Of a DNA stretch of 21,912 nt, positions 2,845 to 7,740 are shown piece by piece; the first letter of the stretch is position 1, and each line of letters begins with the position of its first letter. The notes beneath the pieces are model-generated. The model saw only the letters and a program-made list of their open reading frames with translations. It was not told the origin of the DNA and searched no databases. This DNA is from a virus: the IMG/VR virus record IMGVR_UViG_3300025102_000334, positions 1-21,912 of that record, one strand, 5' to 3'. Both the position numbers and the translations under genes were made by a program.

Positions 2845-4680
2845 TTGGCAAAGGTTCATACAGACAAAGAGTTTGATGACCTTATGGCAGCTGCTTTCGA
2901 GGAAAGCGTTGTTCCATACATTGAGGCGGTCGCATCGACTATTGAAGGAAGGGCAGATGGCCGAGCCTGGCACGACTTCGAGCTTGTCACGGCTCGCGCT
3001 ATTCTGCTTTCCTACCTGTTGGGCTTGTCTCAGGTCATCGAGGACGCTGAAATAGCTGGTGCTGATTTCTTCTCCGACAAGGCGACCTACGCTAAATCTG
3101 GATGCGGTGCAGGTGAGGACGATGCCCCAGGCTTCCAGCCAGGGAACACCTGCGCGGGTGAAGGTGGTAATCAATCAGGAGACACTGACAAGCCCAAGAA
3201 ACGGGTTCGATACGAAGCCGGAAGCAAGCTGACAAAGAAACAAAAAGAAGAGGTGCTGCAAAGTATTAACGACGTTTATTTGATGAACGGAATTAAGAAA
3301 GATGAGATTAAAGGGACGAACCACGACGGCGATCCCATATACGGTTATCCGCATCTTCCTGAGTTGTTCTATACGTCTGATATCACTGGAGCCAAGATTC
3401 GTCGTTTCATTACTTTGCCAGACGGTTCAATTGCACACCCTTCTGAGGTATACGGAGATCAAGTCAAGCAAAGTGAAATTCTTGCAGCTTTGGAGATGAA
3501 AGAACACACAAAGCGCATGGCGAAACTTGATGACGAACAAAGACTGACACGAGTAGTTGGAGTTGAAAATACCGAGGTCGCGAGAGGAATGAATCTCTTG
3601 GGCAAGGTTAACTTGCTGTATAACAAGACTGGAAATATGTTGCCTTATTCTTACCTTGCGGAATCTCCAGACGGAGAAGTTGTCAGGGTCAACGGGGCCA
3701 GCATGAAAGATATGGAGTTTTTCAACGACGCTGGGTTTGTTGCTCTAACCCCTCCGATTGATAAACCAGACAGTCTCACGTCAAACCAAATCAACTACCT
3801 TCGGAGTGTTGATAAAAAAGGCGATCTTCCTGATCAGGTGAAACAGGATTGGCCGGAAATCTTTGGCGAGGCTAAATCAAAGAACGCCAAGGCGACCTAC
3901 GCCAAGGAAGATTGGCCGATGGAGGTCGGATTCGAGGAGTTCGCTCCTGAGCCGTTCCAGGAGGCGATTGACCTGTTTGAAGATCGCGTTCCGATGCTGG
4001 CTCACAACGTCCCGCACATCGCTGAGATCGCCAGGCAGCAAGCCGCCGAGATTGCCATGGCTGAACGCATGGGCGTGGTCGCCAAGCTCGATGCCCAGTC
4101 AAATGCGATATCCAAGGCACTAGGACAGGCGTTCTGGGTTTCTGACGTTGACATGCCTACAACGATTGCCCTGAAAGACCTGATCGGCCAGGCGTTGCGG
4201 GGCGTGATGCCAGACGAACGCATGACCTTGCCTGAGTTTATTGACCGAGCATGGCTTGAGGGCGCGCAAAATCTTACGGCTGCACGACTTGAAACCGTTT
4301 ACAGGACAAATATGCAAACAGCCTTCAACGAAGGTCATATGTCCTCTATGCGGTCGCCGGAGGTCAAAAGCGTTGCACCCCTTGCAATGATCGTAGAAAT
4401 ACAAGATCCTCGTTCTCGAGATCACCACGCGGCAATGGATGGATACATCAATACGGTTGAGTATTTCGACCGCTTGCAGCTGGCTCCCCCTAACGGCTTC
4501 AATTGCAGGGGGACCGTTCGTGTCGTATCTTGGACCGAGGCGGAAAACCTTGGCCTGGTGGGCGATGACGGGGAAATCAATTGGAAAGCTCTCGAGCGGT
4601 ACAACGGCAATCGTCAGGGCTACATAGATCGCGGGGAATACCCCGATCCAGGATTCACAAAATCCGTCCAGGCAGCGTAG
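2845..4680 (+). CDS. MuF-like minor head protein (gp30/SPP1 gp7-like) with a large internal insert
   Basis: 611 residues. TTG is taken as start because AAGGA lies 7 bases upstream; the next in-frame ATG (2884) has no such site. The C-terminal part (about residues 480-590) carries the MuF signature: VYRTNMQTAFNEG, DPRSRDHHAAMDG and PPNGFNCRGT. MuF proteins associate with the portal and are needed for head assembly, and some are ejected with DNA. Residues 1-84 and 349 onward are helical and GC-rich, and read as one normal MuF N-terminal region. Between them lies a 270-residue block that begins with CGAGE-x4-GFQPGNTC (Cys87, Cys103), is AT-richer and is bounded by the repeated peptide KATYAK. 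I do not recognise a fold or active site in the insert. The gene sits one step before the protease/scaffold gene, as in Mu-type head modules. Confidence 0.88.
   Translation: MAKVHTDKEFDDLMAAAFEESVVPYIEAVASTIEGRADGRAWHDFELVTARAILLSYLLGLSQVIEDAEIAGADFFSDKATYAKSGCGAGEDDAPGFQPGNTCAGEGGNQSGDTDKPKKRVRYEAGSKLTKKQKEEVLQSINDVYLMNGIKKDEIKGTNHDGDPIYGYPHLPELFYTSDITGAKIRRFITLPDGSIAHPSEVYGDQVKQSEILAALEMKEHTKRMAKLDDEQRLTRVVGVENTEVARGMNLLGKVNLLYNKTGNMLPYSYLAESPDGEVVRVNGASMKDMEFFNDAGFVALTPPIDKPDSLTSNQINYLRSVDKKGDLPDQVKQDWPEIFGEAKSKNAKATYAKEDWPMEVGFEEFAPEPFQEAIDLFEDRVPMLAHNVPHIAEIARQQAAEIAMAERMGVVAKLDAQSNAISKALGQAFWVSDVDMPTTIALKDLIGQALRGVMPDERMTLPEFIDRAWLEGAQNLTAARLETVYRTNMQTAFNEGHMSSMRSPEVKSVAPLAMIVEIQDPRSRDHHAAMDGYINTVEYFDRLQLAPPNGFNCRGTVRVVSWTEAENLGLVGDDGEINWKALERYNGNRQGYIDRGEYPDPGFTKSVQAA
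3078..3092 (+). repeat. Left copy of a 15-bp direct repeat bounding the MuF insert
   Basis: The sequence caaggcgacctacgc occurs here and again at 3888-3902, in the same reading register, encoding the core of KATYAK at residues 79-84. Including the next three bases the match is 17 of 18. Confidence 0.92.
3888..3902 (+). repeat. Right copy of a 15-bp direct repeat bounding the MuF insert
   Basis: This copy is identical to 3078-3092. It encodes the second KATYAK (residues 349-354). The repeat-to-repeat distance is 810 bp, exactly 270 codons, so loss by recombination between copies would leave an intact MuF frame. Confidence 0.92.
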
Positions 4681-4682
4681 TC

Positions 4683-4886
4683 ATGGAAGACAAGCAACTA
4701 ACACTTCAAGAAGTCGCGTCCCGCATGAGAGTGTCGGACGATACGATTTATCGCCTCTTAAAGAAGGGCGTGCTTGCTGGTTACAAGGTTGGGCTTCAAT
4801 GGCGCATCAAACAGAGCGAGCTAGATCGGTTTATGTTCGCCATGAGCAACAACCGACAGCAATCGGCAACGACCGCAAACTGGTAA
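4683..4886 (+). CDS. Small excisionase-type (HTH_17/MerR-like) DNA-binding protein
   Basis: 67 residues from the first ATG after the MuF stop; the frame is open further upstream but overlaps MuF, and no strong ribosome site is visible. The pattern LTLQEVASRMRVSDDTIYRLLKKGVLAGYKVGLQWRIKQSELDRFM is a textbook winged helix-turn-helix of the excisionase/MerR-like family: a helix beginning with the 'T-x-Q-E-V-A' turn, recognition helix 'S-x-x-T-I-Y-R-L', the glycine turn 'G-x-L-x-G-Y-K-V-G' and the closing 'W-R-I'. A short polar tail (SNNRQQSATT) follows. Such proteins bind DNA as excisionases or regulators. Its place inside the head module between MuF and the protease gene suggests regulation of late genes or a DNA-packaging role rather than classical excision, but this is inference. 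Confidence 0.85.
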   Translation: MEDKQLTLQEVASRMRVSDDTIYRLLKKGVLAGYKVGLQWRIKQSELDRFMFAMSNNRQQSATTANW

Positions 4887-4928
4887 GAACCTTCCACAAA
4901 AACGGTGACAAAGGACGAAATATCTAGT

Positions 4929-6260
4929 ATGAACGCTGAAATGCAGGCCGCAGAAGCAACTATTTCTAATCCGTCTCATCAAGTATCCGAAAACGGGGAT
5001 AAGGTCACGATCCACGACCTCGAACTATTTGTAGGCCACATCCCTGGCTTCGATGCGGATGATTCGGGTATGGATGATTTGGACGATGAGGCTATTGAGA
5101 AGATCATTTCTCGCACCAAAGCTCACATGAGCGCCGGAAGCAACCCTAAGCTGGTTATGCTTCATCAGGAAGAAGGCAAAGATTGCCCCCCTGAAGCTCT
5201 TGGCGATATCGTCAACATTGGTCGCAAGGATATCTACATCAATACCGGCGACGGGGAGAATTACAGCGGGCCTGGTATCGTTGGTGATGTTGTAATGTCG
5301 AAGTCTGACTTCGAGGAGTACATTTCCTCCAACCGTTTCCCACGTCGCTCTGCCGAGATTTGGAAAGACGGCCACATGAGCGAGGTCGCCTTGCTTGGCC
5401 GGGAAACGCCAGCCCGTCCCCTACGAGACACACGGTTCGCCAAGACTGGCGAAAAATCAACGTATACCCGTCCTGTTACCTTTTCTGAGGTTGCTCCAGG
5501 CGGGTCTAACACTTTTGTCCCCGGTATGGCGGACTGTGAAAAGAAGGAACATGACATGCCTGAAGAAAATGACGGTCGCATGACGATCGAGCATGACGGT
5601 GATGACAAGGATCTCATCGCCAAGCTTCGTGCTGAGAATGACACCCTTCGTGAAGACCTGGAGCAGCTCAAAATGCAGCTCAATGGCGATGACGAAGAGG
5701 ACGAAGAAATGATGATGGGAATGGACGAGGACGACGAAATGATGTCCGGCAAATCCCATTATGACGAGGAAGCCAAAGAAACTCATTATGACGAGGAAGA
5801 CGAAGAAGACGAGGACAAAGAAATGTTCTCACGCATTCGTCGCACCAAGAACGGCAAGGAAGTCGTTGCTCGTTTCAAGAAGCTCAAGAGCCAGCGAAAC
5901 GCATACCGCAAGGTAGCGCGTGGCCTGGGTATGAAGCTCCGCAAGGCCAAGTTCTCTAAGGAACTGGACGCACTGCAAGCTGCTGGCTACCGAGTCCGAG
6001 AGCATCGCAATCACATGATGGATGAACTGCTCGCCACCAAGGACGTTGAGGCTAAGCTGAAGTTCTGGCGTGCAACCCTCAAGAAGAACCCGATTGGCAA
6101 GCGTTTGAATATGACAAATGCTCGAGTCAACGGCAAATCTGAGTATTCATCAGCAGATCGTAAAGCGGCATCCGACCGCGCTGTAGTCCGTATGACAAAA
6201 GAGAACCTGGACTCGGATAAGTTCCAGCAGGTCTTTGAACAAGAATTGAAGTCCGGCTGA
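4929..6260 (+). CDS. Head maturation protease/scaffold precursor (Mu gpI-like arrangement)
   Basis: 443 residues from ATG 4929, preceded by AAAGGA at a long 13-base spacing; a GTG at 4905 adds 8 residues but lacks a site. The N-terminal region (about residues 20-175) contains PKLVMLHQEEG, PEALGDIVNIG, a segment ending RFPRRSAEIW and EVALLGRETPARPL, the pattern of phage head protease/core domains found just upstream of capsid genes. I cannot assign the catalytic residues. Residues 187-198 repeat the capsid N-terminal peptide EVAPGG-x-NTFVP. After that comes a scaffold-like part: a coiled coil (IAKLRAENDTLREDLEQLK), a very acidic stretch with a small duplication of HYDEE (16-bp repeat at 5757-5772 and 5784-5799), and a basic helical C-terminus. 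Protease followed by scaffold in one frame is as in Mu I/Z and lambda C/Nu3. Confidence 0.75.
   Translation: MNAEMQAAEATISNPSHQVSENGDKVTIHDLELFVGHIPGFDADDSGMDDLDDEAIEKIISRTKAHMSAGSNPKLVMLHQEEGKDCPPEALGDIVNIGRKDIYINTGDGENYSGPGIVGDVVMSKSDFEEYISSNRFPRRSAEIWKDGHMSEVALLGRETPARPLRDTRFAKTGEKSTYTRPVTFSEVAPGGSNTFVPGMADCEKKEHDMPEENDGRMTIEHDGDDKDLIAKLRAENDTLREDLEQLKMQLNGDDEEDEEMMMGMDEDDEMMSGKSHYDEEAKETHYDEEDEEDEDKEMFSRIRRTKNGKEVVARFKKLKSQRNAYRKVARGLGMKLRKAKFSKELDALQAAGYRVREHRNHMMDELLATKDVEAKLKFWRATLKKNPIGKRLNMTNARVNGKSEYSSADRKAASDRAVVRMTKENLDSDKFQQVFEQELKSG
5556..6260 (+). CDS. Probable nested scaffold protein from an internal start (Mu gpZ-like)
   Basis: An in-frame ATG at 5556 follows AAGGA (5544-5548) at a 7-base spacing, a better ribosome site than that of the full-length gene. 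It would give a 234-residue protein starting MPEENDG and holding exactly the coiled coil, the acidic region and the basic C-terminus, without the protease-like domain. In Mu (Z inside I) and lambda (Nu3 inside C) the scaffold is made this way from the 3' part of the protease gene. What is seen is the site and the domain boundary; that it is used is inference. Confidence 0.6.
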   Translation: MPEENDGRMTIEHDGDDKDLIAKLRAENDTLREDLEQLKMQLNGDDEEDEEMMMGMDEDDEMMSGKSHYDEEAKETHYDEEDEEDEDKEMFSRIRRTKNGKEVVARFKKLKSQRNAYRKVARGLGMKLRKAKFSKELDALQAAGYRVREHRNHMMDELLATKDVEAKLKFWRATLKKNPIGKRLNMTNARVNGKSEYSSADRKAASDRAVVRMTKENLDSDKFQQVFEQELKSG

Positions 6261-6285
6261 TAGCCCGACACAGGAGACATTAAAT

Positions 6286-6690
6286 ATGCCTTTCGCATCA
6301 ACCCCAAATATCGTTGCCGGAGAGACTATTGCTCCCTACCGGTTCGTGGAATGCAGCACTGCTGCTGATAACACTGGTCTTTTGGCTGGAGATAACTCAC
6401 GGGCTATCGGCGTTTCAGCAGGTGACACTAAGCAGTTCGATTCAGCAAACCACGCCGAAAGCGGCGATCAAGTCACTCTTCAGCCTGGTGCTGTTGTACT
6501 TGTCGAAGCTGGTGGCACTATTGCCCGTGGCAAGCAATGCACATCAGACGCAAACGGCAAGGCGACGGCTGCTACCGAAACTGGAACTACGGTTCAAGAA
6601 ATCGCTGGCATTTGTCTTGAGTCCGCAGCATCAGGAACTATTTTCCGAATGCTCTGGCAGCCTAGCCAAACTCGTCCGGCACTTTCCTAA
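6286..6690 (+). CDS. Capsid decoration/cement protein (DUF2190-like)
   Basis: 134 residues, start supported by AGGAG 9 bases upstream. The pattern PYRFVECSTAADNTG, AIGVSAGDT, SGDQVTLQPGAVVLVEAGGTIARGKQ, SDANGKA and IAGICLESAASGTIFRMLWQPSQ is the all-beta arrangement of DUF2190-type decoration proteins, which bind the outside of the mature head and stabilise it. The length is typical. It sits between scaffold and major capsid gene, the usual place for a decoration protein. There is no signal peptide or membrane segment. Confidence 0.82.
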   Translation: MPFASTPNIVAGETIAPYRFVECSTAADNTGLLAGDNSRAIGVSAGDTKQFDSANHAESGDQVTLQPGAVVLVEAGGTIARGKQCTSDANGKATAATETGTTVQEIAGICLESAASGTIFRMLWQPSQTRPALS

Positions 6691-6723
6691 TCTGACCCTT
6701 TTAATTTATAGAGGAATAAAACA

Positions 6724-7740
6724 ATGGCAGAAGTCGCACCCGGTGGCGGAAACACATTCGTCCCCACATTCTCAGAAGCGACGGGGCAGATTCAAGTTGA
6801 ATTCACCCGTTCCCCCAATTCGTTCCCGGTCACTCAGTATTGCAAGCTGACTCCGGTTTCAAAGTCAACTGGCTACTACCTCAAGATTGACGAGGAAGAA
6901 GCAAGCCGTATTGTCAGCACAAACGATTACGTTTGGCGTGATGGCAACGATGCTCCTGAAGGCAACCAAGTCGATCATGAGTTTACGACGTACTCGACGG
7001 AGCGTTTTAGCCCGACGTTTACGCTTGGACATCGTGCTGTCGGTAATGCTGATTGGGACATTGTTGCAGCTCATGCTCGTATCGCAGCATCGAAGGCTAT
7101 GCGTCTTCGTAGCTTCCGTGCAGCCACCCTTCTTACCACAGGTGGCAATTGGCCTACCGGAACCACTAACGATTGCAACACTCTGGTTGGCGGCAAGATG
7201 GACGCTGGTTCAGGAAACAACATCCAAAAGGGCTTCAACAAAGTCGTTGAAACCATTATGGAGAACACTGGCGAAGCTGTGCAGCCGCAAGACATCATTG
7301 CAATCATGGGAACCGACACGGCATTCCAGCTTACCCAGGCTGCTGAATATCGTGAGTATTTCCAAGGTTCGCCGTTTGCAGCCAACTTTGTTCGGGGCGA
7401 TGGCGAGTTCAACGAGTTTGCAATGCTTAACCAGTTCTTTGGAGTTGGCGGCATCGTGGTTGACACTACTACTCGAGTCACCAATCGCAAGGGTGCTACG
7501 AAGGCTCGTTCAGCCATCTATGGCGACGATATTGTCTTTGTTAGCCGTCCTGGCGGACTTCTTGGAACTGAAGGCGTCCCCGATTTCTCCACCGTTACTT
7601 GCTTCGCATACGAAGACATGACGGTTGAGACGATGGATGACACCTGGAACCGACGAACCCGTGGCCGTGTTGTCGATGATTCGGCACTCGCCCTGACGGC
7701 TCCTCTTTCCGGCTTCCTCCTGACGGACGTTGTTGACTGA
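6724..7740 (+). CDS. Major capsid protein
   Basis: 338 residues with GAGGA 8 bases before the ATG. The length, the position directly after scaffold and decoration genes, and features such as HRAVGNADWDIVAAHARIAASKAM (a long spine-type helix, split here for reading), the stretch QPQDIIAIMGTDTAFQL and the closing GVPDFSTVTCFAYEDM and ETMDDTWNRRTRGRVVDD fit an HK97-fold capsid protein. The N-terminus, MAEVAPGGGNTFVP, matches an internal peptide of the scaffold/protease gene in 11 of 12 positions. No long N-terminal delta domain is present, consistent with a separate scaffold. Hundreds of copies would form the head shell. A strong hairpin follows the gene. Assignment rests mainly on synteny and overall pattern. 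Confidence 0.82.
   Translation: MAEVAPGGGNTFVPTFSEATGQIQVEFTRSPNSFPVTQYCKLTPVSKSTGYYLKIDEEEASRIVSTNDYVWRDGNDAPEGNQVDHEFTTYSTERFSPTFTLGHRAVGNADWDIVAAHARIAASKAMRLRSFRAATLLTTGGNWPTGTTNDCNTLVGGKMDAGSGNNIQKGFNKVVETIMENTGEAVQPQDIIAIMGTDTAFQLTQAAEYREYFQGSPFAANFVRGDGEFNEFAMLNQFFGVGGIVVDTTTRVTNRKGATKARSAIYGDDIVFVSRPGGLLGTEGVPDFSTVTCFAYEDMTVETMDDTWNRRTRGRVVDDSALALTAPLSGFLLTDVVD

Follow-up and report, generated by a model that had tools for sequence, protein, structure and literature searches.

The predicted protease-scaffold protein and the major capsid protein of a family of phages share a short peptide with the core G-x(1-3)-[NS]-x-[FY]-[VI]-P, located in the linker of the first protein and at the N-terminus of the second. 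In both proteins the peptide is conserved at the protein level, it is exclusive to these two gene products, and identical residue changes occur in the two copies on the same branches more often than expected. By a small measure, it is probable that a protease encoded by the phage itself recognizes both peptides as substrates and that its action would free the protease from the scaffold and trim the capsid N-terminus.

The head-gene module and the two peptide copies

The window, meaning the whole stretch of DNA analyzed, is a virus record of 21,912 bases. Using the ORF list, Pfam and PHROG, a head module with a Mu-style look was identified in its first part, with the order portal fragment, MuF-like minor head protein, protease-scaffold, cement protein, major capsid protein and connector proteins. 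The protease-scaffold fusion gene (4905..6260, + strand) starts at GTG 4905 or ATG 4929, giving 451 or 443 amino acids, respectively. The gene for the head decoration/cement protein (6286..6690, + strand; PHROG 673, E 2.6e-22; weak Pfam cement matches, all under cut-off) sits between the protease-scaffold and capsid genes, and the motif is absent from its product. The major capsid protein gene is at 6724..7740 (+ strand; PHROG 1005 major head protein, E 1.6e-7). A small ORF at 4683-4886, judged by eye to have an excisionase-type helix-turn-helix look, separates the MuF-like gene from the protease-scaffold gene, an odd location for a DNA-binding protein. A second common peptide, GCGAGE....GFQPGNTC.G, was seen in neighboring proteins at 791-862 (ORF 602-2557) and 3100-3171 (MuF-like ORF 2845-4680), with nucleotide identity of 48/72 between the copies; variants were present in 36 loci, at times several per locus. 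ORF 602-2557 also contains five DAPAA repeats (window 1121, 1538, 1556, 1850 and 2234), and one further DAPAA is found in the portal-like ORF 3-701.

Copy 1 of the shared peptide, EVAPGGSNTFVP, is encoded at 5487..5522 (+ strand) in the linker of the protease-scaffold protein, and copy 2, EVAPGGGNTFVP, at 6730..6765 (+ strand), corresponding to capsid residues 3-14. The first-pass annotation had placed both peptides at these coordinates and in these frames (ORF 4905/4929-6260 and ORF 6724-7740) and had counted 11 of 12 residues as identical, 8 of the 11 with different codons; all of this was confirmed, the sole mismatch being S/G and every codon difference a third-base change, with nucleotide identity of 25/36 between the copies. 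When the scaffold protein was compared with the first 60 capsid residues, the best 10-residue match was 9/10 and the maximum in 100 shuffles was 6/10, so the peptide match is far above chance. The position first described for copy 1, between the protease domain and the scaffold part, also held: it occupies residues 187-198 (from ATG 4929), inside a stretch modeled with pLDDT <50.

In the AlphaFold model of the scaffold protein, a beta domain at approximately residues 18-154 is followed by the pLDDT <50 stretch (residues 164-222) and by long helices from residue 225. The predicted protease domain (4980..5390, + strand; residues 18-154 from ATG 4929) is this beta domain, mostly well modeled; it contains a putative catalytic histidine, His79 (5163..5165, + strand), which is near-invariant (at least 90% of 66 sequences), and a putative nucleophile, Ser141, in the sequence RRSAEIW (5349..5351, + strand), which is invariant in the 66 sequences. 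The helical scaffold part (5601..6257, + strand; residues 225-443) has long predicted helices and an acidic stretch. Pfam and PHROG scans gave no useful match to the protease-scaffold protein, a PDB fold search with its model gave zero matches, and a PDB sequence search with the scaffold and capsid profiles gave zero matches for both. In a BFVD fold search, the model matched the capsid maturation protease of Gordonia phage Jumbo (E 3.8e-8); a weak match was to the Serratia phage KSP20 scaffolding protein (E 3.2e-3). Profile comparison using hhalign matched residues 13-146 to seven Gordonia/Rhodococcus homologues (E 3.4e-5); in the profile alignment His79 lies close to the His that is invariant in the Gordonia group, and Ser141 aligns on that group's invariant Ser (NRSSEIG). 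Direct hhalign comparison of the scaffold-protein family to P2 gpO and Mu I detected no similarity. Because of the Jumbo and KSP20 fold matches and the Gordonia/Rhodococcus profile match with its His and Ser, the protein is, as far as profiles and predicted folds indicate, distantly related to annotated capsid maturation proteases, with a predicted activity of that kind. Three features of phage capsid maturation protease-scaffold fusions (P2 gpO, Mu I and Jumbo type) were found: protease homology, conserved His/Ser, and a C-terminal helical part, upstream of the capsid gene.

For the capsid protein, Foldseek matched the model to HK97-fold capsid proteins in the PDB, with the best E at 3.4e-13 (3bjq) and with HK97 itself (2ft1) also matched, and the protein is on this modeled evidence of the HK97 fold. 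Its AlphaFold model has pLDDT <50 at residues 1-14 and 16-23. A single peptide kept in two predicted-disordered segments has the look of short linear recognition motifs.

Conservation and co-variation across the family

Relatives were collected from IMG/VR, where one scan returned 11 close capsid relatives and a second another 47 that were more distant; this second scan used patterns that included the capsid motif and is therefore biased toward it. Three scans using scaffold patterns outside the motif gave most of loci L065-L214, among them clades E and F, not recovered by the first scan, and most of the 204 loci examined came from queries without a motif anchor. As some loci were one contig fetched twice, tests were performed on the 73 genomes remaining after dereplication, which form six clades with capsid identity as low as 33%, and alignments and the tree were made from 66. 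A tblastn search of cultivated phage records using five probes from three clades gave no match. Related head modules with the motif were also seen in two MAG contigs (L215 and L216) assigned to an uncultured actinobacterium and a Nitrospiraceae bacterium; the bins may represent host bacteria or binning artefacts.

All 204 capsid N-termini and 205 of the 214 scaffold proteins contain the core. Inspection of the nine scaffold exceptions showed two truncated genes, six contigs lacking the Pro, and the outgroup L214, whose scaffold protein has a looser form of the motif (GGANSFAP, with GSENGFVP in the capsid protein). In 4,052 other distinct ORFs the core occurred 6 times (5.2 expected); all six are one GSGASSYIP-type sequence in large ORFs that are probably tail fibers. 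Additional motif copies in the remaining head and tail ORFs were considered and rejected, as the frequency there equals chance. No protein carried more than one copy. The motif Asn/Ser is at capsid residue 11, 10 or 8 in 53, 15 and 5 of the 73 genomes, respectively, and most genomes place it 52-58 residues past the putative nucleophile of the scaffold protein.

In clade A, which includes the window, the capsid and scaffold motifs are PGGGNTFVP and PGGSNTFVP, respectively. The corresponding pairs are [VI]GGGLNTFVP and VGGGLNTF[VI]P in clade B, IGGGL[NS]TFVP and PGVGNVFVP in clade C, PGGNNTFVP and PGG[SN]N[TA]FVP in clade D, PGxANTYVP and PGGSNTY[VI]P in clade E, and VGGGLSTY[VI]P and VGGGLST[FY][VI]P in clade F. 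The loci of clade C (L025, L031, L036, L093 and similar), with a typical capsid motif and a diverged scaffold copy, are a natural case for how strict the match has to be.

Codon use was compared at 526 identical motif residues in the 73 genomes, with expected codon sharing calculated as independent draws from each genome's own usage. The same codon was used at 36% of residues, versus 43% expected. As codon sharing between the copies is not above chance, conservation is at the level of protein, in agreement with what had been proposed from the window. Recent duplication or gene conversion was rejected on codon use, and there was no excess nucleotide identity.

When capsid and scaffold motifs were simply paired, an approach in which relatedness inflates association, the N/S, F/Y, P/other and length positions were strongly associated and V/I and T were not. 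On a tree from which the motif had been left out, the two proteins changed on the same branch 10 times when every kind of change was counted, versus 8.6 expected, which is not significant. Identical-residue changes in both proteins fell on the same branch 8 times versus 2.1 expected (p 0.00025, exploratory parsimony test); the counts were 7 versus 2.2 (p 0.0035) without L214 and 7 versus 1.3 (p 0.00025) without L214 and clade D. Examples are F to Y in clade E, N to S in clade F, and P to A in L080/L089. An independent-pairs test, which had too few pairs, gave no significance. Co-variation of the peptides in relatives, which the first-pass annotation had named as a check, is borne out for the most part: identical co-changes exceed expectation, though the scaffold copy of clade C has diverged and independent variation is seen at V/I and T.

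Candidate roles of the shared peptide

In the proposed mechanism, the protease domain heading the scaffold protein would act on both peptides. Inside the procapsid, it would cut its own linker at the motif, parting the protease from the scaffold, and the same protease would cut the capsid N-terminal motif, such that approximately the first dozen residues would be lost during shell maturation. We infer the protease activity, cutting at the motif, the exact scissile bond and the timing. Consistent with cleavage, the scaffold copy is at the protease/scaffold junction in predicted disorder, the capsid copy has a near-fixed, likewise disordered N-terminal place, the motif is exclusive to the two proteins with identical co-changes and independent codons, and His79 and Ser141 are conserved. 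Against it stand the clade C scaffold copy (GVGNVFVP) beside a typical capsid copy, the six contigs without the scaffold Pro, and the any-kind co-location of changes (10 versus 8.6).

Two characterized systems bear on this reading. The protease of P2 occupies residues 1-141 of gpO; besides cleaving itself, it takes 31 residues off the N-terminus of the capsid protein (PMC7552001). In 80-alpha, the host protease Prp cuts the same N-terminal motif in the capsid and scaffolding proteins, removing 13 and 14 residues (PMC5744158). A shared substrate site is favored because P2 gpO acts at such places and because the 80-alpha protease cuts a motif common to capsid and scaffold. P2 gpO/gpN resemble the present pair in that a protease-scaffold fusion adjoins the capsid gene, but P2 has no decoration gene between the two, and comparison of gpO with gpN gave no common peptide above shuffles. 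The 80-alpha proteins, like those here, have a motif common to scaffold and capsid protein; its sequence differs from the present one, and the scaffold motif is at the N-terminus and is cut by a host enzyme, whereas here it is internal (187-198), beside a phage-encoded protease domain. A single prohead protease, gp245 in SPN3US and gp21 in T4, cuts itself, the capsid protein and other head proteins after a common motif, AXE in SPN3US (PMC7411985). That three-residue motif is found in many head proteins, unlike the core of approximately nine residues in two proteins only. The Gordonia/Rhodococcus Jumbo group has a remotely homologous protease domain and the same gene order, protease - decoration - capsid; its capsid proteins gave no profile similarity to the present capsid family, and in the seven Gordonia/Rhodococcus phages and Mu no peptide was common to the protease-scaffold protein and the capsid N-terminus. 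These seven (L220-L226) have a conserved FSFS[IL]GG of their own in the protease linker, absent from the capsid N-terminus. Since the controls P2, Mu and seven Gordonia/Rhodococcus phages lack one, the shared peptide is a special feature of the present phage family, and, as the Gordonia-group homologues, P2 and Mu do without it, a capsid protease needs no shared peptide.

The main alternative, which we regard as rather doubtful, is docking mimicry: a single surface, on a neighboring capsid subunit, the portal or the cement protein, would be bound both by the N-terminal arm of the capsid protein and by the linker of the scaffold protein. During assembly the scaffold copy would be a placeholder, and the capsid arm would displace it at maturation. 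A Gly-rich, predicted-disordered motif of fixed composition that co-changes in both proteins would suit such a contact, and capsid-protein conservation runs well past the motif, a point for docking and against cleavage. In the P2 procapsid, the first 14 residues of the capsid protein, still uncleaved, attach to the trimeric interfaces that join capsomers (PMC7552001). The motif, however, is at the protease/scaffold border and not in the scaffold C-terminal helix, which is the capsid-binding part in 80-alpha (PMC5744158). It is unlikely, though conceivable, that the scaffold linker mimics the capsid arm at a procapsid docking site, so that release of the scaffold and locking of the capsid happen as a single competitive exchange, with a protease cut in the same peptide perhaps driving the switch. 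Docking and cutting may also be combined in one peptide. The first-pass annotation had offered a shared protease site or a competing contact as the role: protein-level selection, the junction, the capsid N-terminus, co-variation, exclusivity and the putative His/Ser uphold that pair of readings, but they single out neither role.

Recognition of a common tag in both proteins by a host protease or chaperone, as with Prp in 80-alpha, with the phage protease acting elsewhere, is improbable. The 80-alpha shared motif is cut by a host protease, and its authors suggest a common chaperone among its possible roles (PMC5744158), but here the phages encode a conserved protease-like domain directly beside the motif, and clade-specific motif changes are made in both phage proteins. 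Ancient duplication, gene conversion or chance likeness without common function is very improbable: the copies are ~1.2 kb apart, which could favor recombination, but synonymous codons are as different as independent draws (36% same versus 43% expected in the 73 genomes), the peptide persists across clades with scaffold-protein identity of only 16-50%, and chance is excluded by the shuffle test (9/10 versus at most 6/10) and by the chance-level motif frequency elsewhere.

Significance for head assembly

Herpesvirus assemblin, a protease fused to scaffold, is cut at two sites of similar consensus, one of them at the junction; the other is in the scaffold, whereas the putative second site here is in the major capsid protein. 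Among open-licence papers, a peptide shared by scaffold and capsid protein was found for 80-alpha only, and no description of a shared, co-evolving peptide for docking and cutting was found. The parts are of known kinds; in those papers we found no account of a long, exclusive, co-changing motif that occurs both in an internal linker of the scaffold and at the N-terminus of the capsid protein, which is not proof of novelty.

From sequence, it is usually difficult to tell what a capsid maturation protease will cut. The long exclusive motif allows sequence-level prediction of where the two proteins would be cut, or of where they would dock, across a large phage family for which no cultivated member was found. 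If the proposal is true, the motif would be a natural record of a protease or binding surface staying matched with two partners over evolution, and the scaffold-to-capsid exchange would be directly testable by a few mutations.
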